From a virus, in the IMG/VR virus record IMGVR_UViG_3300031281_000004, positions 1 to 51,258 of that record: DNA of 51,258 bases; one strand, given 5' to 3'. A program made the position numbers and the translations under genes. Below, in pieces: positions 14,525 through 47,214 of this stretch; within the stretch, counting starts at the first letter, position 1; each line of letters opens with the position of its first letter. The notes beneath the pieces are model-generated. The model ran no database searches and was not told the origin of the DNA. It was given only the letters and a program-made list of their open reading frames with translations.

Positions 14525-15493
14525 TTATAAGCTGGAAAATAATTCCTTATCAGCTACTCCGAGTTTTTCAAAATCTTCCCTTCCAAAGTTAACATAATCC
14601 TCCGGCGAAGCTACTTCTATTCCAGCTTTTTTAAGACCATTTTTATCAGTACAACTTTTGTTGAACTCGTTATATTCACAATCAGATGGCCACCGTCCAC
14701 ATCCTTTGAACAAATTACTAAACAACTCGCTACCATCTGACTTTGAATATAAACATCTTTTGGCATAGTCACAGGCAGGTCTCATAATATCTGCCAAAAG
14801 ATGATAACCCATATTTTTAAATGTTTCCCTTATCTTCCAGTGTATGCCACATATGAACTCTTCTTCTCCAAAACACATTCTTCTCCTTGATTGTCCAATT
14901 AAAGCCGCAAGAGACTGTGTAAACACAAACGGATGATGATAACACATGGGTAGAATAGATCTTGCTACTTGATAAGATTCTTTTCCTTCTTTTATTATAT
15001 TCTTATAAGTTTTTTTAATAGAACTTAAAATCTCATCAACCATCAATATGGTTCCATCATCCATATTTTTATATTCGGAATACAATATAAAAGAAGAATC
15101 AAGCTTACTATTATCTCTGCATCCTATACTCCCAAAACCACTTCCAATTCTGGTCCTTGCCATTTGATCAAAACAGTGCCTTGGTGTTCCTCTAACTATA
15201 AATGTAAACTTAGGTGCTTCAAGTGCTGTTGGAAGTGTTTTTCCTTTTAACGCAGACATAACAACAAGATACCTCAAATCTGGAGATAATTGTTTCCATT
15301 TATTATAATAATTATCATCTCCCCATGTAGCTGTTGCCATGTGAAAGATTGATTTCCACATGTTTTCCGGTTTATCAACAAGTTCAATATCCAACAATTC
15401 ACATCCAAAAAATATTTCAGATTTTATATCCATATTTCTATTTGGAAGCGTTCCACAAACTTCTCTCAATTTATCTATTTCGTTCTTTTTCAA
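14525..15493 (-). CDS. Divergent ThyX-superfamily protein
   Basis: A 322-residue relative of flavin-dependent thymidylate synthase. The ThyX signature region is recognisable but altered: RGTPRHCFDQMARTRIG at 101-117 gives R-T-R (113-115) where ThyX has R-H-R, with S122 and R126 further along. The second conserved block, ARSILPM at 178-184 followed by SLAALIGQSRRR, is also present. It is about 100 residues longer than the canonical ThyX at 673-1341. It may make a hydroxymethyl or other C5-modified pyrimidine, which is inference. TTG start after AGGAGGG, behind a phage-type promoter. Confidence 0.75.
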   Translation of the reverse strand: MKKNEIDKLREVCGTLPNRNMDIKSEIFFGCELLDIELVDKPENMWKSIFHMATATWGDDNYYNKWKQLSPDLRYLVVMSALKGKTLPTALEAPKFTFIVRGTPRHCFDQMARTRIGSGFGSIGCRDNSKLDSSFILYSEYKNMDDGTILMVDEILSSIKKTYKNIIKEGKESYQVARSILPMCYHHPFVFTQSLAALIGQSRRRMCFGEEEFICGIHWKIRETFKNMGYHLLADIMRPACDYAKRCLYSKSDGSELFSNLFKGCGRWPSDCEYNEFNKSCTDKNGLKKAGIEVASPEDYVNFGREDFEKLGVADKELFSSL

Positions 15494-20711: not shown

Positions 20712-21265
20712 ATTTTAGCTCTCTTTCTATTTCTTCGTCTTCTTCTAGGATCTCCGTCAGACATATAAACATGAGCAGATCCTATCATAACAGATATATT
20801 AACTTTTATTCTCTTGTTTTTATAAATAGAATATTTTAATTCTTTTATTATTTCTATTACACCAGCAATATCAGCAATAAGCAACTTTTCGACATCGCTT
20901 GATCTAATAGAAATAATAACAGCCATTTCTTTATCTCTTGGCAATAATTGAACTGTTGATATACAATCCTCTGAATGAACTATTATCTTTCTGGATCCTA
21001 TAGGTTCTTCGTTAAAATAAAACTTATTATATTCAATTTTTTGCAAAAGCCCATACTTAAGAAAACTATAATGATGTCTTTCTTGATTCATTTTATTTAT
21101 AAACTTAGATTTATAAAGTGCTTTTGCAGAAGGATAAAGACTTTTTAAATCAACATCTCTGAAAATAAGATTCACACCTACTAATTCTTTTGTATTTCCA
21201 GAAGTAAATCCAATTTCCTTAACTTCAGAAATTAAGTCTCTTATTTCAGATAATATCTTATCCAT
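20708..21265 (-). CDS. ThyA-superfamily protein B (hydroxymethylase-like)
   Basis: A 185-residue shortened relative of thymidylate synthase. KELVGVNL (26-33) matches the family ELxGV motif. C101 lies 20 residues before R121-S122 (RSSDV), exactly as in the sister protein at 22151-22783, and would be the nucleophile. H165 and Y167 (GSAHVY) match the nucleotide-binding His-x-Tyr. The residue aligned with ThyA Asn177 appears to be D132. An Arg-rich tail ends the protein. ATG at 21265 chosen because AAGGAGAA precedes it; the longer TTG start would bury that site. Confidence 0.65.
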   Translation of the reverse strand: MDKILSEIRDLISEVKEIGFTSGNTKELVGVNLIFRDVDLKSLYPSAKALYKSKFINKMNQERHHYSFLKYGLLQKIEYNKFYFNEEPIGSRKIIVHSEDCISTVQLLPRDKEMAVIISIRSSDVEKLLIADIAGVIEIIKELKYSIYKNKRIKVNISVMIGSAHVYMSDGDPRRRRRNRKRAKI

Positions 21266-22154
21266 AGTAACTATTCTCCTTTTTTTCAAAATACTCTATA
21301 ATATCGTGAGTTCTTAAATCATTATCCCAATTTGCATATCTACCTACATGTTTGATATATGGATTGATGACAAGTGGAATATCACCATTTATTTTAGCGT
21401 TATTAACGAAAGATTTAAGTATAACATTACAATCAACATAATCATCAACATTTATAGAAGTTAATGATTCCACACAAAATCTAGAATCATTAACTCTTGT
21501 TATTCTATAAAAAGGAATATTTTTTTCCGGAAAATAAACAAAGTCATAATCCTTCATAAATCCATCAAAGTTGCTACTTTCAACTAAATAATGATAAATA
21601 TTTACACCTTTATAAGAAAAATTAGGAATAAGAAATTGATTAAATATCGGAGCTGGAATAGTATTTATCAGCTTATAGTATATAAGCTGATAAATATCCA
21701 TTGTATTTTCTTTGCCTAAAAAATAACCTCTTATAGATTTTTTATATAAATCTATAGTTCTTATTGCGAAATATTCATAATTCTGTTTTAAAAGAACACT
21801 TAACCGAGACCAAACACTTATCATATTGTATCCTTCGATGATGTTATCTCCGTTATTCATACCTGATTTAATATATTTCCACCACTCATCACCCCTTGTT
21901 TTTTTTAGATAAGAAATACGAGTTTCTTGATCTATAATACTTTGTGTGTTCTTATTAAAAAAATATCCAACTTTATATATCTTGGGAGAAATATCACACA
22001 TTATTTTTTCTATAAACAAATCGACAAAATCTGTTCTTTTTATTATTCTAGGACCAAAAAAAACTTGTCCATTATCTTTTGTTAATATTTTATAACCTTT
22101 ATTGTAAAAAGCTGATATCAAACCAACAATTCCTCCACCCAAAACATAATTCAT
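21258..22154 (-). CDS. FAD-dependent oxidoreductase-like protein
   Basis: A 298-residue protein opening with a dinucleotide-binding loop (LGGGIVGL, 5-12). It ends with HVGRYANWDNDLRTHDI, which resembles the C-terminal FAD-contacting segment of amine oxidase, UDP-galactopyranose mutase or protoporphyrinogen oxidase-type flavoproteins. The middle is divergent. It lies between two ThyA-superfamily genes with four- to eight-base overlaps, so it very likely works with them, perhaps oxidising or tailoring a modified pyrimidine. Substrate unknown. Confidence 0.65.
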   Translation of the reverse strand: MNYVLGGGIVGLISAFYNKGYKILTKDNGQVFFGPRIIKRTDFVDLFIEKIMCDISPKIYKVGYFFNKNTQSIIDQETRISYLKKTRGDEWWKYIKSGMNNGDNIIEGYNMISVWSRLSVLLKQNYEYFAIRTIDLYKKSIRGYFLGKENTMDIYQLIYYKLINTIPAPIFNQFLIPNFSYKGVNIYHYLVESSNFDGFMKDYDFVYFPEKNIPFYRITRVNDSRFCVESLTSINVDDYVDCNVILKSFVNNAKINGDIPLVINPYIKHVGRYANWDNDLRTHDIIEYFEKKENSYYG

Positions 22155-22783
22155 ATTTTATTTCTCCTTATATATATATGAAGGGATCCAACATTAAAAA
22201 TTATTCTTCCAACCAAAGCGTCAACTTTAGCTGCCATGTGATCTTGAAAGTTTCTTGATAGATAAACATCATTAGGCCACACATTCAAATCCAAACTTCT
22301 CATAAAATAAATCATATGAAGTTTATCATTTCTCAATAAAAATTGGTACCCTATAGAACAAGGTACTTCTTCTTTACCTAAAACAGGAGTATCATCACAA
22401 GGACTCCATATTCCAAGAAACGCTTGACGATTGGCCCAACTTTTATTGTCTTTTATGTTATTTATTATTATTTTTTTTTGGGGTATTATTCTGTTATTAT
22501 AAGTATAATGTTTATCTTTATCTTCATATATTATTTTTTTATCATTAACAAACTCATCACTTAATTCTGCTATATAATTTAATCTATCTTTCGGTAATGG
22601 TTCTATTTTTTTTATAAGATCAAAAACATCATCTGTATCTAATATTTCAAATCTTACACCGATAAGTTCTTTAACATAACAAATATCTTCTCTTGATCTA
22701 CACGAATTATTGTTGTATTGTTCAGCATCCATTAACATTTTTTTCAAAGATTCGTATGCTTCTATACAATTATTAAAAACCAA
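22151..22783 (-). CDS. ThyA-superfamily protein A (dNMP hydroxymethylase-like)
   Basis: A 210-residue protein with clear thymidylate-synthase landmarks: ELIGVRF (39-45), NRQAFLGIW (118-126), nucleophile C142 in VPCSIGYQF, phosphate-binding RSLD (162-165), and HIY (202-204). Where ThyA has PFN (Asn177), this protein reads PND (170-172), so Asp may stand in the base-recognition position, as in dCMP hydroxymethylases. I use the TTG at 22783, five bases after GGAGG; the GTG at 22795 overlaps that ribosome site. A terminator stem (22796-22830) lies directly upstream. Confidence 0.75.
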   Translation of the reverse strand: MVFNNCIEAYESLKKMLMDAEQYNNNSCRSREDICYVKELIGVRFEILDTDDVFDLIKKIEPLPKDRLNYIAELSDEFVNDKKIIYEDKDKHYTYNNRIIPQKKIIINNIKDNKSWANRQAFLGIWSPCDDTPVLGKEEVPCSIGYQFLLRNDKLHMIYFMRSLDLNVWPNDVYLSRNFQDHMAAKVDALVGRIIFNVGSLHIYIRRNKI

Positions 22784-22795
22784 ATAAACCTCCAC

Positions 22796-22830
22796 AAAAA
22801 AACTCGCCCGAGGCTTCTACACCTCGGGCT
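22796..22830 (-). terminator. Strong intrinsic terminator ahead of ThyA-like gene A
   Basis: On the minus strand, GCCCGAGG pairs with CCTCGGGC around an eight-base loop, followed by a run of seven T. The next gene's ribosome site begins two bases later, so the gene depends on read-through or on processing. Either this ends a small RNA, or it works as an attenuator. Confidence 0.8.
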
Positions 22831-22913
22831 AAAAGAATTAAAATAGAAAGAACATCGGAGGACCGGAACATTTACCTAAAAATAAGGATTCGCCGGTCAA
22901 TTAAAAAAAGCAT
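22796..22913 (-). ncRNA. Candidate small RNA or leader RNA 1 with CCUCC motif
   Basis: About 118 bases run from a phage-type promoter (22918-22951) to the terminator at 22796-22830 with no reading frame. A hairpin is closed by GACCGG (22893-22898) and CCGGTC (22861-22866). Immediately after it comes CCTCC (22857-22861), left unpaired and complementary to Shine-Dalgarno GGAGG. A second RNA with the same layout lies at 34117-34199. It could be a free small RNA or a regulatory leader of the ThyA-like gene. Confidence 0.5.
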
Positions 22914-22917
22914 CTAT

Positions 22918-22951
22918 TATATAATAGACAAAACAGTAATTTTTTCCACTT
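22918..22951 (-). promoter_or_regulatory. Phage-type promoter of small RNA 1 / ThyA-like operon
   Basis: On the minus strand: AAGTGG, 16 bases, GTCTATTATATA (continuing AATAG). The spacer is one base shorter than at the other six sites; the GTCTATTATATA half is a perfect match. Confidence 0.6.
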
Positions 22952-23990: not shown

Positions 23991-24004
23991 CCCCAAACTT
24001 TTTT

Positions 24005-24202
24005 TCAGAACTCACTCAAAGAATGTTTTATTCTGACTTCCATATACATTATACCACCATCTTTTAAATATACAGTATAAATATCACAATCATCCATGCA
24101 ACCAACTTTAACAATATTTATAACTTTTTTATTATTAAATAATTCTCTTTCAAAAAGATTAAGTTTTTTTTTATCTTTTTTATCTGTTCTCTTAGAACTC
24201 AT
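24005..24202 (-). CDS. Small hypothetical protein downstream of tubulin-like gene
   Basis: A 65-residue protein with a Lys-rich N-terminus and a beta-rich second half (DIYTVYLKDGGIMYMEVRI). It overlaps the end of the tubulin-like gene by 11 bases and so is probably made with it. Phage tubulins often have a small DNA-binding or accessory partner nearby, but no helix-turn-helix is visible here, so no role is assigned. Confidence 0.55.
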   Translation of the reverse strand: MSSKRTDKKDKKKLNLFERELFNNKKVINIVKVGCMDDCDIYTVYLKDGGIMYMEVRIKHSLSEF

Positions 24203-25289
24203 TTAATTCCTCCAGATCTAAAGATTCTACTTCTCCTTTTTCGGAAAGAAGTATTTTATCTTTTATAGCTTGATTTATAAGACTTTTAAGAGATTTGCTC
24301 TTAATCAATCCACCAAGTATAATATCAACCCTTATTTTATCAACCTTCTTATTATAATAGGAAGAATTAAAAACAATCGGAGCTCTTGTCATTCTTCCCA
24401 CTATATCAAATATTCTATCTATAAAAGGAGAAATCTTTTCTCCTTTATAAGAATCAGGAATGGATATTGAACAAAGAGCTATTTTAGAAGTATTTATATC
24501 AAAACTTCCTATAAACAAACTAGAAGTTCTTACAACTTTCCTTAATTCATTATCCTCCATATCAATCCAAGAATCATCAATCTTAAAAGATCTCATATCG
24601 CAGAAACCATGAGAATATAAAAGAACTTTTTTGAGTTCGCGAAAATCTAAAGCACTATAACCTGCAGCAAAATCTAATTGTCTATATTCTTCATAAATGT
24701 CTGTTATTTTAAAAAATCTATCGAAAGCTTTAGGCAACACTTTATTTATTCCTTTGAATCTAAAATCATCTGAAAAATATTTCTTACAAGAATATTCATT
24801 ATCCACCAATAATAGATTTATTTCGTTATTTTTCAAATGATTTTCTATTACCCAATTAAGAGTTATTAAAGAATTGGGTTTTGCAGGAAGTTTTTCTCTT
24901 TTTTCTGGAAGAGTGTATATTAAAAACGTATTTTCAAACTCATTTGTCAGATATGGTAGAATAACTTTCAACAAACCACAACCAGATCCTCCTCCACCTC
25001 CAACACAAATAAGTATAACATCTCTATTGTATACTTTTTGTCTTTCCATATCCCTTTTAAAAGCGTCATAAAGATCTTTCTTGTATTTATTTGCAAGATC
25101 TTCACCTACCCCAGGATCTCTTCCTGTTCCACCATCGCTTAAAACAAACTTACCACCACCAGGTGGTTTAAACTTAGAAAAATCAACTTTACTAAAATTA
25201 AAATAAACACCAGGTATTTTAAAATATTTACTGAAAGAAGCTGCTATTCTACTTCCTCCTTGTCCTAATCCCACAACATAATCAAACAT
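24192..25289 (-). CDS. Tubulin/FtsZ-like GTPase (TubZ/PhuZ-type)
   Basis: A 365-residue protein with the order of FtsZ/tubulin nucleotide motifs: T1-like GLGQGGSRIA (7-16), T3-like GGTGRDPGVGEDL (53-65), and the G-box VGGGGGSGCGLL (96-107), equivalent to the tubulin signature GGGTGSG. A T7-like ALDFREL at 213-219 places D215 and E218, suited to GTP hydrolysis. The C-terminal 12 residues are acidic. Phage tubulins form filaments that position or segregate phage DNA. It lies beside the sigma, primase and helicase genes. Confidence 0.8.
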   Translation of the reverse strand: MFDYVVGLGQGGSRIAASFSKYFKIPGVYFNFSKVDFSKFKPPGGGKFVLSDGGTGRDPGVGEDLANKYKKDLYDAFKRDMERQKVYNRDVILICVGGGGGSGCGLLKVILPYLTNEFENTFLIYTLPEKREKLPAKPNSLITLNWVIENHLKNNEINLLLVDNEYSCKKYFSDDFRFKGINKVLPKAFDRFFKITDIYEEYRQLDFAAGYSALDFRELKKVLLYSHGFCDMRSFKIDDSWIDMEDNELRKVVRTSSLFIGSFDINTSKIALCSISIPDSYKGEKISPFIDRIFDIVGRMTRAPIVFNSSYYNKKVDKIRVDIILGGLIKSKSLKSLINQAIKDKILLSEKGEVESLDLEELNEF

Positions 25290-25519: not shown

Positions 25520-26482
25520 TTATTCTAATGATTTATGAAATACATTTTTGTAAATCATTATAATTTCTTTTTTTGATAAATCATTAGGATCCTTATTTTT
25601 AGGTAATCTTATAACACTACATCCCATATAACTTCTCACAAGAGAATAACAATTCATAACTTCTCTTTCATCAGCATCGCCATCGAGATTAACAAATATA
25701 AAATCAAAGTTCTTAACAAGTTTATTCATTTGTATGTCTGAAATCTTTTTTTTACCTACACCAATTGCTGGCAAACTGTTTTGTTGCAAATATATTACGT
25801 CTATTTCTCCTTCTACCAACACCCCTATTCTATAAAGGCCATAATATTTATTCTTTAATAATTCATACAGACCAAATAAAACTTTATTAGCATCAGAACC
25901 TTTACTTTTTCTAACTTTTGTTTTTTTGTAATTTGTTGTTATGCTTCTACCAACAACAGATATAAGTCTTCCGTGTTCGTCTCTCATAGGAATAAGTATT
26001 CTTTTATCTCCTTTCCAAAAACCACATCTTATTGAAAATCTTTCTATAGATTCATCATGTATATTTCTATCAAATAAATATTTCCAATATTCTGAATCTG
26101 TGTTTTCATTAGGCTTACTGTAGTTTGAATCATCAAAATTAACAAGAACTTTTATTTTAAGCTTCTTATTGTCTGTATGTCTTACTTCTTTTATTTTATT
26201 TATTATAGAATCTACTCTTATATCATCTTCAATACTATCTTCTTCAATATCTTCAATAACTTCTTCTGGAATAAAATCCTCATCAAAGATAATTTTTATT
26301 ATCTCTTTTACCCCCCCATGAGCATCACAGCCTAAACAATTATATTTTCCTTTATAAAAATTGATACCTAAAGAAGGAGAAGTATCGCCATGAAATGGAC
26401 AACACACCATTATATTAGTTCCTGAAATATAATAATTCATTCTTTCTTTTTGTAATTTTTCCACAAACTCATATTGATTCAT
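25520..26482 (-). CDS. DnaG-type DNA primase
   Basis: A 320-residue primase. The N-terminal CHC2 zinc site is C28, H31, C49 and C52 (CCPFHGDTSPSLGI, then YNCLGC). The TOPRIM core has E224 (VLVEGEIDVIYL) and the DGD-type acidic cluster D267/D269. The helicase-interaction domain of cellular DnaG is absent, which is usual in phages. Its start overlaps the stop of the replicative helicase gene, matching a primase-helicase functional pair. Confidence 0.92.
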   Translation of the reverse strand: MNQYEFVEKLQKERMNYYISGTNIMVCCPFHGDTSPSLGINFYKGKYNCLGCDAHGGVKEIIKIIFDEDFIPEEVIEDIEEDSIEDDIRVDSIINKIKEVRHTDNKKLKIKVLVNFDDSNYSKPNENTDSEYWKYLFDRNIHDESIERFSIRCGFWKGDKRILIPMRDEHGRLISVVGRSITTNYKKTKVRKSKGSDANKVLFGLYELLKNKYYGLYRIGVLVEGEIDVIYLQQNSLPAIGVGKKKISDIQMNKLVKNFDFIFVNLDGDADEREVMNCYSLVRSYMGCSVIRLPKNKDPNDLSKKEIIMIYKNVFHKSLE

Positions 26483-29717: not shown

Positions 29718-29755
29718 AAAAATAAAGGGGAGAAGACAAAAATCTTCTCCCCTTT
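29716..29755 (-). terminator. Intrinsic terminator of the DUF932 gene
   Basis: A 12-base perfect stem (AAGGGGAGAAGA with its complement) around a six-base loop, followed on the minus strand by TTTATTTTTTT. It lies three bases after the stop of the DUF932 gene. Confidence 0.85.
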
Positions 29756-30622: not shown

Positions 30623-30657
30623 TTGTAGACAGAATAGATTAAATTGTCTACTATATA
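30623..30657 (+). promoter_or_regulatory. Phage-type promoter opening the plus-strand island
   Basis: TTGTAG, 17 bases, GTCTACTATATA (continuing ATAG), 18 bases before the ATG at 30675. It is the only copy noticed on the plus strand. The GTAGACA and TGTCTAC parts also form a seven-base inverted repeat, which could be an operator between the divergent genes. Confidence 0.65.
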
Positions 30658-30674: not shown

Positions 30675-31007
30675 ATGAAGATAGAAATTAAACATAATCC
30701 TACAAGCGCCTTTTTAGATAATAAAAAATTAGATGAATATGAAAAGATAGGAAGAATAAATATATTCGGAAATGATTCTGTCTTTTTTGGAATTGTTATA
30801 GACACAAACAATAAAAAAGATTTTTCTGTAATAATAGAAGGAAACGATATTGTTAATATTATATGCCCTGTTTGTGGAAGTAAATTATTCAGATGTTCTT
30901 ATATAAGAGAATTATTGGAACCTCATGATTTCTTTTGTTCTAATGATGATTTTAGAATACAATTCTTTTACCCTTTAGATTTTCAAAGTTCTGTGAATAC
31001 AAAATGA
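30675..31007 (+). CDS. Hypothetical protein with zinc-knuckle cysteines
   Basis: A 110-residue protein, first gene of the plus-strand island. Residues 64-67 form CPVC and two further cysteines (RCSY, FCSN) follow, suggesting a zinc ribbon. Its last codons overlap the first copy of the repeated upstream element (30986-31021), so coding and regulatory information share bases. AAAGG precedes the ATG. No family recognised. Confidence 0.65.
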   Translation: MKIEIKHNPTSAFLDNKKLDEYEKIGRINIFGNDSVFFGIVIDTNNKKDFSVIIEGNDIVNIICPVCGSKLFRCSYIRELLEPHDFFCSNDDFRIQFFYPLDFQSSVNTK

Positions 31008-31021
31008 TAAGTTAAGGACGA
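30986..31021 (+). promoter_or_regulatory. Repeated upstream element, copy 1
   Basis: Begins AAGTTCTGTGAATACA and ends TAAGTTAAGG; AAGTT to AAGG is 28 bases, as in all seven copies. It fits a promoter read as TAAGTT-N17-TAWRTT. It is followed by a possible hairpin (CGAAGAA with TTCTTCG) and AGGAGG before the gene at 31062. Confidence 0.55.
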
Positions 31022-31061
31022 AGAACAAGATTCTTCGAACAAAACTATTAGGAGGTTTTAA

Positions 31062-31370
31062 ATGGGAACTACAAAGAAAGCAAAGAAAGCTGAAAACAAG
31101 GTTGTTAAAACCAACAGCAAAGGCAAAACGGAAATCGTTTTAAAAATGGTCGAACAAGGTAAAACAAGAAAAGACATCATCGACAAACTCGTCAGCATGG
31201 ACGAATCAGTCAGTCGTAAATCAAATGCAGGTCTTGTCTGCCACATATTCAAAGCCCACAATCTTATCGGCAAAGTTCCTTCCGGAGTTGATCGAAAGAA
31301 AAAAAAGGAAGTCAAGGTAAAAGAAAAGACTTCCAACAAAAAGATCAAGAAAGTCAACAAAGCAGCCTAA
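31062..31370 (+). CDS. Basic DNA-binding-like protein
   Basis: A 102-residue protein with Lys-rich ends and a central helical domain (TEIVLKMVEQGKTRKDIIDKLVS), reminiscent of a helix-turn-helix in which G-x-T-R-K-D-I is the turn. Codon use is richer in C- and G-ending codons than its neighbours (ATC, GTC, GAC), like the histone-like gene at 14020-14490. It has a long AT-rich leader, AGGAGG and a terminator of its own. It may be an abundant early DNA-binding or regulatory protein. Confidence 0.65.
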   Translation: MGTTKKAKKAENKVVKTNSKGKTEIVLKMVEQGKTRKDIIDKLVSMDESVSRKSNAGLVCHIFKAHNLIGKVPSGVDRKKKKEVKVKEKTSNKKIKKVNKAA

Positions 31371-31380
31371 CCTCACAAAA

Positions 31381-31414
31381 GGGAGTAAGTTAATTCTTAC
31401 TCCCTTATTTTTTT
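31381..31414 (+). terminator. Intrinsic terminator
   Basis: GGGAGTAAG pairs with CTTACTCCC around a TTAATT loop, then TTATTTTTTT. It closes the 31062 unit. Confidence 0.85.
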
Positions 31415-31422
31415 ATGGCATA

Positions 31423-31458
31423 AAGTTCTGTGAATACAGAATAATATATTAAGGACGA
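31423..31458 (+). promoter_or_regulatory. Repeated upstream element, copy 2
   Basis: Begins AAGTTCTGTGAATACA and ends with AATATATTAAGG, with the 28-base spacing. GGACGAAAGTCC follows, a stem closed by a GAAA (GNRA) tetraloop at the probable RNA 5' end. Confidence 0.55.
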
Positions 31459-31485
31459 AAGTCCAAAACTATTAGGAGGTTTCAA

Positions 31486-31749
31486 ATGAACAAATACGAA
31501 AGAGTAGAAAAACTTTTAGAGGCACAAACAAAGATCGACGAAGCAATTGATCTTATACACGAAGCATTTCCACAAACAGAAAAATCAAGATTAGACGCTT
31601 ACATATGTGGACACTTAAAAGGTTGGTCTCACGGTACTAATCCTTACGATTCAACCGCTATTCCGAGACTGATAGAACAAATTGAAAGAGAAGAGTTAGA
31701 AGAAGACGATGAATGCGATGATGAAGATGCCACAAACGGTAGAAGATAA
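31486..31749 (+). CDS. Small acidic hypothetical protein
   Basis: An 87-residue helical protein ending in a strongly acidic stretch (EELEEDDECDDED). Such small acidic proteins in phage islands often inhibit host enzymes, but nothing specific is recognisable. AGGAGG site, own upstream element and own terminator. Confidence 0.65.
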   Translation: MNKYERVEKLLEAQTKIDEAIDLIHEAFPQTEKSRLDAYICGHLKGWSHGTNPYDSTAIPRLIEQIEREELEEDDECDDEDATNGRR

Positions 31750-31758
31750 TTTCATTCC

Positions 31759-31792
31759 TTAGGGGCTGTTAATTCAGCCCCTTAATTTTTTT
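31759..31792 (+). terminator. Intrinsic terminator
   Basis: AGGGGCTG pairs with CAGCCCCT around TTAATT, then TTAATTTTTTT. The loop is the same as in two other terminators of the island. Confidence 0.85.
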
Positions 31793-31810
31793 GTGTTCCT
31801 ACAAATCACT

Positions 31811-31846
31811 AAGTTCTGAATATACAGAATAATAAGTTAAGGGCGA
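31811..31846 (+). promoter_or_regulatory. Repeated upstream element, copy 3
   Basis: Begins AAGTTCTGAATATACA and ends AATAAGTTAAGG, with the same 28-base spacing. GGGCGAAAGCC follows, again a GAAA-loop hairpin, then GGAGG. Confidence 0.5.
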
Positions 31847-31864
31847 AAGCCAAAGGAGGTTCGA

Positions 31865-32008
31865 ATGAGAACATTAAAAGAAATACATGAAGATGTTAAA
31901 CAGTACATCACAAACAAAAAGAAAATACATGAACTTAATTTATTAGCAAGAGATGCGTTTCTTGAAGGAATCATTTCAGTAGACACTTACAAAAGCTTAA
32001 TATTTTAA
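31865..32008 (+). CDS. Very small hypothetical protein (47 aa)
   Basis: A 47-residue frame starting MRTLKEIHED and ending SLIF, with AAAGGAGG at the right distance. It occupies the unit between upstream-element copy 3 and the terminator at 32031-32062 and is the only frame there, which supports it. Predicted helical; function unknown. Confidence 0.65.
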   Translation: MRTLKEIHEDVKQYITNKKKIHELNLLARDAFLEGIISVDTYKSLIF

Positions 32009-32030
32009 GTTCACCTATACACCATACACC

Positions 32031-32062
32031 AGGCAGGAAATAAATCCTGCCTTTCTTTTTTT
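32031..32062 (+). terminator. Intrinsic terminator
   Basis: AGGCAGGA pairs with TCCTGCCT, followed by TTCTTTTTTT. Confidence 0.85.
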
Positions 32063-32071
32063 GTGGTCTTT

Positions 32072-32107
32072 AAGTTAAGTAAACACAGAATAATATATTA
32101 AGGAGGA
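32072..32107 (+). promoter_or_regulatory. Repeated upstream element, copy 4
   Basis: Begins AAGTTAAGTAAACACA and ends AATATATTAAGG, leading directly into AGGAGG and the ATG at 32112. The implied leader is almost only the ribosome site. Confidence 0.5.
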
Positions 32108-32111
32108 AATT

Positions 32112-32504
32112 ATGAACATTTTAATTTTTGTTTTTGCATTAGAAATAGGATTATTACCTGAAGGTCATTTAAGCATGACGGATGTGTCTGAATATACATA
32201 TGATTTAAATTATTCACTATATGTACAATTCGAATGTGAGCTTCAATTCTTTGATATGTTATTCATCGGTGGTAAGATATATTCGCCTTTCTGGAAAAAG
32301 TACGGTGAACCTGGTTTCGCACCAGACAGTATTGAATATCTTTTTAATGGAGGTATCCGATTCTATTTTATAGAAATTGGATTTCGACATTATTGTAAGC
32401 ATCCTGTGTTACCTTGGTATAATTCTACTTTTTCTTTTCGTCCAGTCTGGGAAGCATCCATTGATGAACTCTACATAAGATTCCAAGGACGTACCAAATT
32501 ATAA
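32112..32504 (+). CDS. Small beta-rich, possibly exported protein
   Basis: A 130-residue protein with a short hydrophobic start (ILIFVFALEIGLL, residues 3-15). A series of alternating polar/apolar aromatic strands follows (NYSLYVQFECELQFF, GGIRFYFIEIGFRHY). The pattern resembles outer-membrane beta strands or a small lipocalin-like barrel. If exported it might block superinfection, which is speculation. Its own upstream element and terminator surround it. Confidence 0.6.
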   Translation: MNILIFVFALEIGLLPEGHLSMTDVSEYTYDLNYSLYVQFECELQFFDMLFIGGKIYSPFWKKYGEPGFAPDSIEYLFNGGIRFYFIEIGFRHYCKHPVLPWYNSTFSFRPVWEASIDELYIRFQGRTKL

Positions 32505-32533
32505 GGGCTGTTAATTCAGCCCTTTCTTTTTTT
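32503..32533 (+). terminator. Intrinsic terminator
   Basis: AAGGGCTG pairs with CAGCCCTT around TTAATT, then TCTTTTTTT. The stem begins within the stop codon of the preceding gene. Confidence 0.85.
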
Positions 32534-32541
32534 ATGCCTTT

Positions 32542-32577
32542 AAGTTCTGTGAACACAAAATAATATATTAAGGACGA
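32542..32577 (+). promoter_or_regulatory. Repeated upstream element, copy 5
   Basis: Begins AAGTTCTGTGAACACA and ends AATATATTAAGG with 28-base spacing, then GACGAAAAGGAGG and the start at 32592. Confidence 0.55.
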
Positions 32578-32591
32578 AAAGGAGGTTTTAG

Positions 32592-32729
32592 ATGTATATA
32601 GAAACTAAAATACTAAAACAAGCTTTGAAAAGCAAAGAGCTTATGGAAAAGTTCATCGAATTATCTGCCATGTCATTAGTAGCAGAAATTATGAAAGGAG
32701 TTTTAAAATGCAATACGAAGAAGCATTAA
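32592..32729 (+). CDS. Very small hypothetical protein (45 aa)
   Basis: A 45-residue frame starting MYIETKILKQ with GGAGG before it. It overlaps the next gene by 22 bases; the next gene's AAAGGAG site lies inside it, implying coupling. Predicted helical. Supported by position directly after upstream-element copy 5. Confidence 0.55.
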   Translation: MYIETKILKQALKSKELMEKFIELSAMSLVAEIMKGVLKCNTKKH

Positions 32730-33034
32730 AAGAACTTAAGAAAAGAAATTGGAAAATAAGTTGGTTTTTCTTATTTGAAACAAAAGAAGAAGCTGAACAT
32801 ATTATTAAAGATAACAACTACGAATCTAAAGAAAAAGATTCAACAACTGATATTATGAATGAAATAACGATAGCACTTGCAGGTCACACAAGAATACTTT
32901 CAGAGTATATAGATTCCAATCAGAATATTCGAATACGAAAACAGAGAAAGTTCATCAGAATATTCGCAGATGATAAAGAAGTAAAAGTAATTCTTTCAGA
33001 CTTTGATACTGATTTGATCGACTTTTCAACCTAA
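32708..33034 (+). CDS. Hypothetical protein
   Basis: A 108-residue protein with a helical N-terminus (YEEALKELKKRNW), a central region and a beta-rich basic segment (IRIRKQRKFIRIFADDKEVKVIL). It is the second gene of a two-gene unit. No family recognised. Confidence 0.6.
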   Translation: MQYEEALKELKKRNWKISWFFLFETKEEAEHIIKDNNYESKEKDSTTDIMNEITIALAGHTRILSEYIDSNQNIRIRKQRKFIRIFADDKEVKVILSDFDTDLIDFST

Positions 33035-33038
33035 CATT

Positions 33039-33074
33039 TAAGGAGAGTGATTTATTCACTCTCCTTCTTTTTTT
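33039..33074 (+). terminator. Intrinsic terminator
   Basis: AGGAGAGTGA pairs with TCACTCTCCT around a four-base loop, then TCTTTTTTT. Confidence 0.85.
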
Positions 33075-33085
33075 GTGCTGTCTAC

Positions 33086-33121
33086 AAGTTCTGTGAACAC
33101 AAAATAACATATTAAGGAGGA
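33086..33121 (+). promoter_or_regulatory. Repeated upstream element, copy 6
   Basis: Begins AAGTTCTGTGAACACA and ends AACATATTAAGG, running directly into AGGAGG and the ATG at 33126. Confidence 0.5.
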
Positions 33122-33125
33122 CAAT

Positions 33126-33347
33126 ATGAAAACAATCATAAGAGCAAATGAAGTGAAGATGGGTGATATTATAAAAATCTTAGAAGGATATGATGATGAA
33201 AAGGGTAGTCCCAGAATCAACTACAAGAAAATAAAAGTTGATCGTATGGAACAAAAAGATAAGAAAATAACTTTCACTGATGAATCTACGGGAGAAACTT
33301 CTACTGTAGTGATAACCGAACCATTACTCGTAATAAGAGGAGAATAA
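33126..33347 (+). CDS. Small hypothetical beta-rich protein
   Basis: A 73-residue protein with features of a small beta barrel (ANEVKMGDIIKIL, KITFTDESTGETSTVVI). It resembles SH3/OB-like folds in outline only. Part of a two-gene unit with the frame that starts three bases after its stop. Confidence 0.6.
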   Translation: MKTIIRANEVKMGDIIKILEGYDDEKGSPRINYKKIKVDRMEQKDKKITFTDESTGETSTVVITEPLLVIRGE

Positions 33348-33349
33348 AA

Positions 33350-33634
33350 ATGAAGATTTCAGAGTTAATGCAGAAATATAAAACATACAGTTCTATAACA
33401 GTTGAAGAACAATCAGATGGAACATTTAAAGGAACATGTTATTTAAGAGAAACAGGAAAGCGTAAATACTTTAAATTGAAAAATTTAGAAGATTATCCTG
33501 AATATCTCGATCAGTTTAAACCTAGAATATCCAATGAAACACAATTGTATCTTTGTTTGTATCAAACAAAACATCCTAAGTTTCATAAGTTCTATCTTAA
33601 TATTTACCTCCTTTTAAAAAATCATCTTCACTAA
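33350..33634 (+). CDS. Hypothetical protein
   Basis: A 94-residue basic protein with an N-terminal helix, a strand-like middle (YSSITVEEQSDGTFKGTCYL) and an aromatic C-terminus. AGAGGAG precedes the ATG, located within the end of the preceding gene. Function unknown. Confidence 0.55.
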   Translation: MKISELMQKYKTYSSITVEEQSDGTFKGTCYLRETGKRKYFKLKNLEDYPEYLDQFKPRISNETQLYLCLYQTKHPKFHKFYLNIYLLLKNHLH

Positions 33635-33637
33635 TCT

Positions 33638-33669
33638 ATGGCGGGATTTATTCCCGCCTTGTTTTTTTA
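33638..33669 (+). terminator. Intrinsic terminator
   Basis: GGCGGGA pairs with TCCCGCC around a five-base loop, followed by TTGTTTTTTT. Confidence 0.85.
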
Positions 33670-33685
33670 TGCCTTTATGATTTCT

Positions 33686-33721
33686 AAGTTCGGTGTTTAC
33701 AAAATAATATATTAAGGAGGA
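33686..33721 (+). promoter_or_regulatory. Repeated upstream element, copy 7
   Basis: Begins AAGTTCGGTGTTTACA and ends AATATATTAAGG, followed by AGGAGG and the ATG at 33729. The central bases vary but the 28-base spacing is preserved. Confidence 0.5.
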
Positions 33722-33728
33722 AATCATT

Positions 33729-34067
33729 ATGACAAAGAAACAAGCGTTGAGCGAAGGATTAACTTTTAAAGGATGTTTTGAATGGTATAACCAGAAATAC
33801 AAAGTAACGGCAGAAGCACAAAGACTTAGAAAATTAGGATACAGGGCTGTTACAGTTGATGAAAATAATGGTTGTTCAGTATACGTCGAACAAAGATACT
33901 TCGCAGACAGGGATATAGAAAAAATAGAATCTTATTTAAAAGAAGGATATCAAGCAAGACTGAATTACTTCAAAGAAGAATATGAAAAAAAGATAGAAAA
34001 AGAAAATCAAACAAAAGAACAAAATGAAAAGAGGCTTGAAGAACTCAAACAAAAATACTACAGTTAA
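33729..34067 (+). CDS. Hypothetical coiled-coil protein
   Basis: A 112-residue protein. The first 70 residues include KGCFEWYNQKYKVTAEAQRLRKLGYRA-type helical segments; the last 45 form a highly charged coiled coil rich in Glu and Lys. Last gene of the plus-strand island, closed by its own terminator. Function unknown. Confidence 0.6.
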   Translation: MTKKQALSEGLTFKGCFEWYNQKYKVTAEAQRLRKLGYRAVTVDENNGCSVYVEQRYFADRDIEKIESYLKEGYQARLNYFKEEYEKKIEKENQTKEQNEKRLEELKQKYYS

Positions 34068-34116: not shown

Positions 34117-34147
34117 AAAAAAAACGGGCCATGGGAGCGAGCCCGTC
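34117..34147 (-). terminator. Intrinsic terminator on the minus strand
   Basis: ACGGGC pairs with GCCCGT, followed on the minus strand by eight T. It ends small RNA 2 and perhaps also the late structural operon. Confidence 0.85.
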
Positions 34148-34199
34148 TTTGTAAAAAATTGTGATAGATAAGGGAGGGTTGTTTCTCTTCAACTATCAC
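34117..34199 (-). ncRNA. Candidate small RNA 2 with CCCUCCC loop
   Basis: About 83 bases without a reading frame, from a phage-type promoter (34200-34234) to the terminator at 34117-34147. The 5' end folds as GTGATA with TATCAC, enclosing a nested GTTG/CAAC hairpin. CCCTCCC (34172-34178) is left in the internal loop and is complementary to Shine-Dalgarno sequences. Architecture matches small RNA 1 at 22796-22913. Confidence 0.55.
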
Positions 34200-34234
34200 T
34201 ATATAATAGACATTTTATTTATATGTTTCCACGC
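34200..34234 (-). promoter_or_regulatory. Phage-type promoter of small RNA 2
   Basis: On the minus strand: GCGTGG, 17 bases, GTCTATTATATA, directly followed by the GTGATAG stem of the RNA. It overlaps the 3' end of the sigma-like gene, and nothing but the small RNA lies downstream before the terminator. Confidence 0.65.
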
Positions 34235-39255: not shown

Positions 39256-41958
39256 TTATTTAAACATAATTTCAGGATTATTCAAGCTATCTAAAGAAAG
39301 GACTTCCCAAACTTTAGTTGTACTTTCAACATTTTTATAAATGTTAATATAAGGCGAACCATGAGTTACAATAGCGAGATATCTTCCGTCTGGAGAAAAG
39401 TCACATCCGTAGCCCTTATCTGATAAAGTGCTAGCTGGATCTGATAGTTTGATAAATACTCCTCCTATTTTCTTATAAACAGTCATATAAACTCCCAAAT
39501 TATGTCCGACAGCAATATATTTTCCATCACGAGAAACAGCCAATCCTTCAGACGTACTCGGCGGCATATCCTCGGGATCTTCTATTTTAGTAAATGTATC
39601 GCCTGTTATCTCATATATTGTAAGATAATAACTACTACCTCCCGTAGCTATAATAAGATATTTTCCATCAGGTGTAAAGTTGTGTTCAAACGCTGCACTA
39701 GGAGGTAATGTTGATGGATTTGATAATTTAACAAAAGTATCACCTATTCTTCTATATATATATATATATGGGGTACCACTTGTAGCTACTGTTAGATAAG
39801 TATTATCAGGAGAAAAACGACAATAAAAGGTATATTGACCAAGAGTAAACGAATCGGATTCTGTAAAAGTACTCCCTGATATTTTATAAACTATAAAACC
39901 GGATTGATGAGTCACTGCCAAATAATTACCATCACTAGAAAAGTCACATCCATACGCAGTAATACCAGGAAGTGTTGCGGGATTGCTTAATTTTGTAAAA
40001 GTATCTCCCGATCTTTCATAGATAGTTAAATATGGAGAAGTATGATGAACAACTGCAAGATAAGTACCACAGGGAGAAAAAGCACAACCTTCAGCCTCCC
40101 CAGTTGGTAATGTCCCAGGATCAGACAGCTTAGTAAAAGTATCTCCAGATCTCTTATATATAGTTATATATGGAGATGTATCATGTACAACAGCTAAATA
40201 GACACCATCGAGAGAAAAGCAACAACCATTTCCTTCTCCTGTAGGAAGTGTTCCTGGATTTGATAATTTAACTCCTGGTTCTATTCTGTTATCTCCATTA
40301 CCTTTATACATCAATTTTATTTTACTTTTTCCAAAAAATTGTAAATATCCACTTGTCCCTTTTGTTGTAAAATATTTATTCATATAAGAAATAACATGAT
40401 CAGCATTATTTTGAATAATTCTTGAATAATCACTCGTTACTATTTCTATTGTTTCTCCTGTATTAGCAACCACAGGAAGTGTCATATTTATTACTCCGTT
40501 TGCAAAATACTTTTTGTTGGATATCATAGTAAAGCTGCTTGTCTTTTCTTCAAAGAACAATTGATCAGATAATATTTTCCATTCAGAACTAGTATCATCC
40601 CAAACAATTATAATACTATCACCAATAGAAAGAGCGCGATCTGTTGTACCATTAGAAACCAATTCTATGTTAACAAGATAAGATCCACTACCGACAGCCT
40701 GAATTATCATAATAGTTCCATCTCTGTTAGCTCCATTAAATAATCCAAGAGTTACATTACCGGATGTAGTATTAACAAATAACTTTCTATCATTTATCAA
40801 TTCATTAGCTGAAAAGTCATGACTCGCTGTTATTGTACTTACAAAATACGCAAAAGGATTATGGATAACCCATTCAGAATTAGTATTATCCCAAACAACT
40901 TTCATAACTTGTCCTGGATAAAGTACAACATCTGTTGTACCATTAGAAACCAATTCAACATCAACTTGATTAGCTGTTCCTATAACACAAACTTCTACTT
41001 TTGACCCATCTCTTGAACTACCATTAAATAGACCTAATGTTATTGATCCAGACGTAGGATTAACAAATAATCTGTGATCTTTTATTAAACTGGCTGCCGA
41101 ATAATCAGCACTTGTTGTAACAGTCAATATATTCAAACTTTTTTGGGCTAATTCTTGTAAGGCATTTTCCACTTCAGTAGATGTTATTAAAGACCCTGCA
41201 TCAGCTATAGGTAAATCTACAGCACTAACTTTTCCAGCACTTGTTCCCCAATCAATATGATTATCTTTTATAGAATCATCTTTATGATCGCCATCTTCAT
41301 CATGTGCTATACGAAAAAGAGATTTCATATATTCAATATTACCTAATTTGAATGTTATGGATGTTTCTGAAGTCCAATTTGTTGTAACTTCTCCATCGTA
41401 TCCGCCAGTTATATTATCTATATCAGCATCATACATAGCAGTAGATTCTCCTGCTGAAACCAATATCTCCGCTAATTTTATCCATCCGGATGTATGAGAA
41501 GGAGCAACACCAGATCCTGGAGTACCTTGAATCACTTGTGCTTCTATTTCATATCTAGTTTTTGTATCCCAATCCTGATATGTTATATTACCTGATGAAG
41601 GATTTCTAAATGCTCTCTGTTCTTCGTCAAAATCTGTTGTCGTTATTCTTATTTCAATTACATCTATTCTGTCAGATCCGCTTCCATTAGCAATAGATAC
41701 TGGGCCAAATATACTGCCTACATGTGCCGTCTTACCTGTGGACTGACAGAATGCTATTCCAGCTGTGATATCAACATTCATAGAAGGCGTTCCTCTTTCT
41801 TGAACAGTCAAACCATGTATGACAACATCATTAGTAGCATTAAAAACCATTTCAAATAAGGTATTTAGATTTTCTATACCTTGTTGTTCGCCATAATTAA
41901 AATCATCTTGTTTTGCTATTTCATTACTCCCAAATCTTGATATGGTTAAATCACCCAT
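39256..41958 (-). CDS. Large tail fibre/receptor-binding protein with beta-propeller
   Basis: A 900-residue protein. Residues 1-260 form an attachment and shaft region. About 275-470 contains two consecutive copies of a domain (each with LFVNxTSGxxTLGLFNG, VELVSNGTTD and VVWD motifs). From about 566 to 882 there are seven repeats of roughly 46 residues with the pattern K-L-S-x-P, G-C-x-F-S-x-D-G-x-Y-L-A-V and P-Y-x-x-I-Y, predicting a seven-bladed propeller at the tip. It probably recognises the host surface. Followed by the collar fibre gene. Confidence 0.85.
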   Translation of the reverse strand: MGDLTISRFGSNEIAKQDDFNYGEQQGIENLNTLFEMVFNATNDVVIHGLTVQERGTPSMNVDITAGIAFCQSTGKTAHVGSIFGPVSIANGSGSDRIDVIEIRITTTDFDEEQRAFRNPSSGNITYQDWDTKTRYEIEAQVIQGTPGSGVAPSHTSGWIKLAEILVSAGESTAMYDADIDNITGGYDGEVTTNWTSETSITFKLGNIEYMKSLFRIAHDEDGDHKDDSIKDNHIDWGTSAGKVSAVDLPIADAGSLITSTEVENALQELAQKSLNILTVTTSADYSAASLIKDHRLFVNPTSGSITLGLFNGSSRDGSKVEVCVIGTANQVDVELVSNGTTDVVLYPGQVMKVVWDNTNSEWVIHNPFAYFVSTITASHDFSANELINDRKLFVNTTSGNVTLGLFNGANRDGTIMIIQAVGSGSYLVNIELVSNGTTDRALSIGDSIIIVWDDTSSEWKILSDQLFFEEKTSSFTMISNKKYFANGVINMTLPVVANTGETIEIVTSDYSRIIQNNADHVISYMNKYFTTKGTSGYLQFFGKSKIKLMYKGNGDNRIEPGVKLSNPGTLPTGEGNGCCFSLDGVYLAVVHDTSPYITIYKRSGDTFTKLSDPGTLPTGEAEGCAFSPCGTYLAVVHHTSPYLTIYERSGDTFTKLSNPATLPGITAYGCDFSSDGNYLAVTHQSGFIVYKISGSTFTESDSFTLGQYTFYCRFSPDNTYLTVATSGTPYIYIYRRIGDTFVKLSNPSTLPPSAAFEHNFTPDGKYLIIATGGSSYYLTIYEITGDTFTKIEDPEDMPPSTSEGLAVSRDGKYIAVGHNLGVYMTVYKKIGGVFIKLSDPASTLSDKGYGCDFSPDGRYLAIVTHGSPYINIYKNVESTTKVWEVLSLDSLNNPEIMFK
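39313..40263 (-). repeat. Seven tandem beta-propeller-type repeats (coding)
   Basis: Seven consecutive units of about 138 bases encode the C-terminal repeats of the tail fibre. The units are clearly diverged at DNA level, so they are old duplications, though blades 1 and 2 are the most alike. Such arrays can recombine to change receptor specificity. Confidence 0.75.
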
Positions 41959-46452: not shown

Positions 46453-47214
46453 CTAAGGAACTTTAACAGAACTAGTTGGATCCAGACAGTGAGGAGCTCC
46501 AGCAAAAAGACAATTTAAATAATCATTAGCGCCAGTTGTTCCATTATTTAAAGTTATAGATTGACCTGATGCAGGAGTAATTTTTACTCCACCACTTGTA
46601 TTTATTTCTATTTTAGCATTATTTACACTCACTTCAAATGTAGCTCCTGATGCAGGAGTAATTTTTACTCCTCCGCTGGCGTTTATTTCTATCTTGGCAT
46701 TATTTGCACTTATTTCAAATGTAGCTCCTGATGGTAATTCTAATTTTAAATTGCCATTAGATTTATCTTCTGTTAAAATAATACCTGATTCTGTTTTTCT
46801 GTATCTTTCTGTTTCCTTACCGCTTTTTAGTATATTTGATTGTTGTTTCTTCGTATGTATACCAAAAAGAGTAAAAGCAGAACATAAAACAAGAGAATCT
46901 TCTAAAGTGCCATAAGGAAAGACAATAAGAACAAGAGAATCAACAGGAGGCAAATCTCTTTCCCCTATTCCTTCTGTTGAGTCAGTTGTTGCCCACTCAC
47001 TGCTTCTCACATTAACATGAGTGAGAGATATTCCAGAATCAAGAGTTACATCAACGGTACAATCATCAGATCTTCTTTTTTTAATTCTTCCCCAGGCAAA
47101 ATATCTCCTTGGTTGATCAAAAGAAGATTTACCAAATGATTTCTTACTATCCATAAGCCCTTTTGACTTTATAGAAGAAGGAGCTTTTACATTTCTAACA
47201 CTTACTCTTCGCAT
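46453..47214 (-). CDS. Baseplate spike protein (gpV/gp5-like)
   Basis: A 253-residue spike. An OB-fold N-terminal domain (about 38-118, YFAWGRIKKRR to LVLIVFPYG) leads into beta-helix repeats. Two almost identical 27-residue units (SGATFEISANNAKIEIN and SGATFEVSVNNAKIEIN) lie near 160-215, with an 81-base period in the DNA. The C-terminal tip includes CLFAGAPHCLDP, a possible metal site. It punctures the outer membrane on contraction. Precedes the LysM/gp25 fusion gene. Confidence 0.8.
   Translation of the reverse strand: MRRVSVRNVKAPSSIKSKGLMDSKKSFGKSSFDQPRRYFAWGRIKKRRSDDCTVDVTLDSGISLTHVNVRSSEWATTDSTEGIGERDLPPVDSLVLIVFPYGTLEDSLVLCSAFTLFGIHTKKQQSNILKSGKETERYRKTESGIILTEDKSNGNLKLELPSGATFEISANNAKIEINASGGVKITPASGATFEVSVNNAKIEINTSGGVKITPASGQSITLNNGTTGANDYLNCLFAGAPHCLDPTSSVKVP
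46571..46740 (-). repeat. Tandem 81-base repeat in the spike gene
   Basis: Two copies of an 81-base unit encode 27-residue beta-helix rungs. The stretch GCAGGAGTAATTTTTACTCC recurs at 46571 and 46652. High similarity implies a recent duplication lengthening the spike. Confidence 0.7.

Follow-up and report, generated by a model that had tools for sequence, protein, structure and literature searches.

Beyond the model systems, regulatory RNAs of phages have received little study. Among described systems, GraL, the leader RNA of Escherichia coli greA, acts in trans on nudE mRNA as well as in cis (as described in PMC6829880) and has the same order as the phage leader analysed here, that is, a promoter, a short RNA ended by an intrinsic terminator and a gene behind; unlike our leader, it belongs to a bacterial gene and has been shown experimentally, and the likeness is one of plan, with no kinship in sequence to be expected. 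Rli51, the 121-nt leader of Listeria mpl, acts in trans in its short form and resembles the plan predicted for the phage leader in its premature termination, its nearly equal RNA length and the read-through that makes the downstream gene, although the account in PMC11394854 predicts a stable antiterminator fold for it, whereas we found none in the phage leader. Another case is IsrK of the Gifsy-1 prophage, which is likewise phage-derived and yields a short terminated isoform and a read-through mRNA from one promoter, but which, according to PMC4825925, opens its own long form to translation; our leader shows no sign of a pairing of this kind. The sRNAs with a C-rich motif known from Firmicutes, such as RsaA (as presented in PMC3961350), share with it a run of C-rich sequence that could pair with Shine-Dalgarno (SD) sites, but differ in that no start site in this phage pairs beyond chance. 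If the short RNA is made, the phage leader would work like GraL, Rli51 and IsrK.

The promoter-terminator-start arrangement before thyA

The window, the whole stretch of viral DNA that was analysed, comprises 51,258 bases with 30% G+C. On its minus strand, genes follow in the order sigma-like, dCMP deaminase, leader, ThyA-like (thyA), two unknown genes, HAD, thymidylate-kinase-like and dUTPase. The features around the leader are as follows.

23942-23421, minus strand: sigma-factor-like gene (phrog_1740, 1.7e-9)
23434-22955, minus strand: dCMP deaminase gene (PF00383, 3e-14)
22920-22949, minus strand: promoter of a phage motif family, GTGGAA (-35-like, 22949-22944), N13 and TGTCTATTATA (22930-22920), with the -10 TATTAT at 22926-22921
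22861-22898, minus strand: 5' hairpin of the minimum-energy fold, a 6-bp GACCGG/CCGGUC stem plus a weak inner 3-bp hairpin
22857-22861, minus strand: CCUCC, mostly unpaired by predicted unpaired probabilities
22830-22856, minus strand: U-rich linker, single-stranded in the fold prediction
22796-22829, minus strand: intrinsic terminator, 9-bp stem at 22829-22806 and T7 at 22802-22796, -18.2 kcal/mol
22781-22795, minus strand: thyA translation start, SD GGAGG at 22793-22789 and TTG at 22783-22781
22151-22783, minus strand: ThyA-like gene, 210 aa (PF00303, 1.4e-7; phrog_160, 5.7e-20), heading a cluster with the HAD, thymidylate-kinase-like and dUTPase genes

The sequence itself thus shows a promoter of the phage's own family, a terminator of a family common in the genome and a thyA SD that follows closely on the U-tract. 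Transcription is predicted to start near 22914, giving a leader RNA of about 118 nt up to the terminator. With at most one mismatch, TGTCTATTATA occurs 17 times against 3.2 expected, and at gene ends and gaps it lies 13-14 nt behind GTGGAA or GTAGAG. The combined motif GT[AG]GA-N17-19-TATTATA has four copies, each of them on the minus strand and at a gene end or gap (13724, 15558, 22949 and 34232), where first-order simulated genomes give an expectation of 0.18; a fifth, weaker one (29715) lies behind the terminator at 29755. We take this family to be a middle-type phage promoter. The sequence-only reading had proposed a promoter here, and the enriched family bears it out more strongly than that reading knew. 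We also tried the palindrome TCTATTATATAATAGA, which has a T7 a few bases on (22929-22899), as the terminator of the dCMP deaminase gene; as its stem is almost wholly A-U and the shared promoter motif forms its core, we prefer to read it as a promoter.

A different promoter-like repeat, AAGTTCTGTGAACACAAAATAATATATTAAGGA, stands ahead of seven plus-strand genes (30986-33729), mostly directly behind a terminator, and has two minus-strand relatives, one near 24000 before the sigma-like gene and one at 30632 before the 29759-30574 gene. These repeats are probably early promoters. Some run into short perfect hairpins, GGACGAAAGUCC and GGGCGAAAGCC (31423-31466 and 31811-31854, plus strand), which are close to the expected RNA 5' end and are possibly mRNA stabilisers.

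The strong terminator described from the sequence was confirmed, with seven T after its 9-bp stem. The tail, TTTTTTTGTGG, is common to nine phage terminators as T7-[AG]TG[GC], located at 22802, 29722 and 34124 on the minus strand and at 31408, 32056, 32527, 33068, 33662 and 34103 on the plus strand; conservation thus extends to bases beyond the U-tract. The placement directly before the ThyA-like gene also held. The SD opens 2 nt past the U-tract and the TTG start codon follows it by five bases, which leaves no space for a promoter in between, so that translation of thyA from this SD requires read-through RNA; an RNA begun inside or past the terminator would lose the SD. Of the structural arguments for attenuation of thyA by the element, we regard this position as the strongest, although, on sequence alone, a shorter thyA product without the SD could conceivably come from a weak internal promoter. 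At the leader, a promoter is followed by an intrinsic terminator with a gene start right behind, whereas elsewhere in the phage (29755-29670 and the plus-strand cassettes) the order is terminator, promoter, gene. Masking of the thyA SD in cis did not stand out: in read-through RNA about 95% pairing is predicted for the SD, but the same was seen in 36% of shuffled leaders.

The phage carries two further genes of the ThyX family (673-1341 and 14525-15493). Because of these, and with some tblastn matches of the ThyA-like protein annotated as 'pyrimidine hmase', that protein may be a pyrimidine hydroxymethylase instead of a thymidylate synthase. The presence in one phage of two ThyX-family genes, the ThyA-like gene (22151-22783, minus strand) and dCMP deaminase, kinase and dUTPase genes suggests phage DNA with modified pyrimidines. 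Other genes of the window include one for a Tubulin/FtsZ-like protein (24192-25289, minus strand; PF00091 at 2.8e-6, below the curated cut-off), a possible phage cytoskeleton. A 900-aa protein (39256-41958) contains internal 138-base repeats at 39374-40267 (minus strand) that resemble the recurring blades of a beta-propeller, as in a tail protein, and a 253-aa protein (46453-47214) contains an 81-base tandem duplication at 46565-46726 (minus strand), 88% identical.

The locus with its leader was found neither in viral contigs (searched with the ThyA-like, DnaE, dCMP deaminase and RecA proteins) nor in bacterial genomes (ThyA core) nor in phage records (nucleotide and protein searches), in searches that require near-exact peptide stretches and that distant relatives could escape. 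In viral contigs with RecA relatives (at most 50% identical), several of them fragments, the ThyA-like protein found no match. When the hairpin with CUCCGAUG, the promoter and the early-promoter motif were used as patterns, the matches lay in unrelated contigs. The phage thus appears to have no close known relatives among phage records, viral contigs and bacterial genomes.

Leader fold and the CCUCC motif

In the minimum-energy fold, GACCGG (22898-22893) pairs with CCGGUC (22866-22861). The hairpin noted from the sequence is therefore present in the prediction, but it is no more stable than in shuffled sequences: the leader without its terminator had a z of -0.44, and 57 of 200 shuffles were equally good. 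Within the leader, the best alternative partners for the two terminator arms reached -7.3 and -7.9 kcal/mol, against -18.2 kcal/mol for the terminator itself and shuffle means of -8.2 and -9.1 kcal/mol. Rfam, searched at gathering and relaxed thresholds, matched no family to the leader, with weak chance matches below the gathering score. As neither a known aptamer family nor mutually exclusive terminator and antiterminator folds were found, we do not class the leader as a riboswitch. The idea of an attenuator is supported in its general sense by the SD behind the U-tract; the proposed control by a nucleotide or folate is not supported, with antiterminator pairing at chance and no Rfam family.

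The exposed CCUCC is predicted to be unpaired at four of its five bases (unpaired probabilities of about 0.9-1.0), the first C lying within the stem. In sense transcripts the motif is rare, with 10 copies in about 47.6 kb, so that a stretch of 117 nt would contain it by chance in about 2.5% of cases. However, against the 69 phage start regions its best pairing was at chance (69.5% of shuffles equal), and the proposed action on SD sites in trans is unsupported for the phage's genes. Compared with anti-SD sRNAs, the leader has the unpaired C-rich motif and lacks extended start-site pairing, as judged on phage genes only. With fold, antiterminator, SD pairing, CCUCC and Rfam results all null, we see no support for a ligand switch or for a repressor that masks SD sites of phage genes. 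The stretch had also been called frame-free, which is nearly so: it holds one 32-codon ATG frame (22871-22773), without a good SD.

Complementarity to the primase mRNA and a second unit

Outside its terminator the leader has long complements elsewhere in the window, and a related unit lies at 34.2 kb.

25520-26482, minus strand: DnaG-like primase coding sequence (PF01807, 7.9e-11)
22872-22889, minus strand: 18-nt AUCCUUAUUUUUAGGUAA around the apical loop, spanning the inner hairpin, a perfect complement of primase mRNA
25589-25606, minus strand: candidate target UUACCUAAAAAUAAGGAU in primase mRNA, near the 3' end of the coding sequence, an exact inverted match
34117-34232, minus strand: second unit, with a GTGGAAA promoter from 34232, TGTCTATTATA at 34212-34202, a hairpin at 34199-34161 and a strong terminator at 34151-34117

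No other exact inverted match in the 51-kb window between sites over 200 bases apart is as long as the 18-nt match of leader and primase. Three independent inverted matches of at least 16 nt were found, two of which involve the leader RNA; in the linker, 16 nt (22830-22845) are complementary to the coding sequence of a downstream 193-aa gene (20832-20847). Across 20,000 dinucleotide shuffles of the leader RNA, the probability of a match of at least 18 nt was 0.00135, for a complementarity that was noticed after the fact, and such a match together with a second 16-base match never occurred (0 of 20,000). By energy, the primase was the best target of the apical loop at -23.3 kcal/mol, the next reaching -15.9 kcal/mol, with 5% of shuffled loops equal; for the linker, the best site fell within the coding sequence of DnaE at -29.0 kcal/mol, which 5% of shuffles equalled. 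Opening would cost about 4 kcal/mol per side, for the leader loop and for the primase site. We regard the primase complementarity as suggestive only; it nevertheless makes pairing with primase mRNA a better supported candidate than pairing of CCUCC with SD sites in trans. Since pairing would take place close to where the primase coding sequence ends, any effect would be expected to act through mRNA decay instead of start-site blocking.

The second unit (34232-34117) has no gene downstream on the minus strand before converging plus-strand genes, and its terminator would also be needed just to end the transcript of the upstream gene. Its hairpin carries CCCUCCC, the CUC of which is predicted to be paired. 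The probability of CCUCC in both units is about 5e-4 if they are taken as two independent draws, the second unit having been found after the fact. Against the phage start regions this RNA, too, paired at chance (60.5% of shuffles equal).

Competing explanations and a probable terminated leader

Transcripts from the sigma-like and dCMP deaminase genes would meet the terminator too, which may thus be a mere operon boundary: it would end their transcript, the promoter would feed a weakly read-through thyA cluster, and neither regulation nor a short-RNA function would be involved. A terminator that shares its type with eight others in the phage, a leader fold at chance and the lack of an antiterminator all fit this explanation, whereas the promoter's place before the terminator, unlike at this phage's other boundaries, and the primase complementarity speak against it; we consider it somewhat unlikely. 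Highly improbable, in our view, is a riboswitch or attenuator that responds to a metabolite, be it dUMP, dCMP or a folate. The position before a nucleotide-metabolism gene and the combination of hairpin and terminator would suit it, but the partners of the terminator arms (-7.3 and -7.9 kcal/mol) are no better than in shuffles, Rfam gave no match, and the 5' domain is small and of ordinary stability.

A stand-alone sRNA with a C-rich motif, whose CCUCC would block SD sites of phage or host, would draw on the mostly unpaired motif, its rarity in sense RNA of the genome and its recurrence in the second unit. Phage start regions at chance for both RNAs (69.5% and 60.5% of shuffles) and the predicted pairing of CUC in the second argue against it and make it very unlikely. 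The ATG frame crosses the terminator and overlaps the thyA start, as translation-controlled antitermination would demand, in which ribosomes on the 32-codon frame (22871-22773) would melt the terminator and couple to thyA. With just AGG 3 nt ahead of the ATG, and with a frame of this length open by chance in about one of 13 cases at this composition by our own estimate, such coupling is extremely improbable.

We therefore return to a terminated leader, which we hold to be the probable nature of the element: a leaky or factor-controlled attenuator of thyA that would release a short RNA. In this explanation, a middle-type phage promoter would start RNA near 22914, the majority of transcription would end at 22796-22802 to give the RNA of about 118 nt, and a minority would read through into thyA cluster mRNA, by plain leakage or with the help of a phage or host factor and not through a metabolite-binding fold. 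The enriched promoter family on one strand, the terminator of common type, the position of the SD and the second unit count for it; the ordinary fold of the leader without its terminator counts against it, as does a primase match that is equalled by 5% of shuffles in energy and lies inside the coding sequence. The released RNA might further pair its apical loop with primase mRNA in trans, a step that we consider unlikely as matters stand. Quite unlikely is the fuller scenario, in which a short RNA from the attenuated leader of the thyA cluster would silence the phage's own primase mRNA, and perhaps that of the DNA polymerase, and so couple transcription of the nucleotide genes to a brake on replication, with a second RNA of the same kind at 34.2 kb.

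Should the leader RNA be made and pair with primase mRNA, it would form a simple RNA link from nucleotide-metabolism genes to replication. Even without a role in trans, the families of promoters and terminators, together with the second unit, provide a testable transcription map of this phage.
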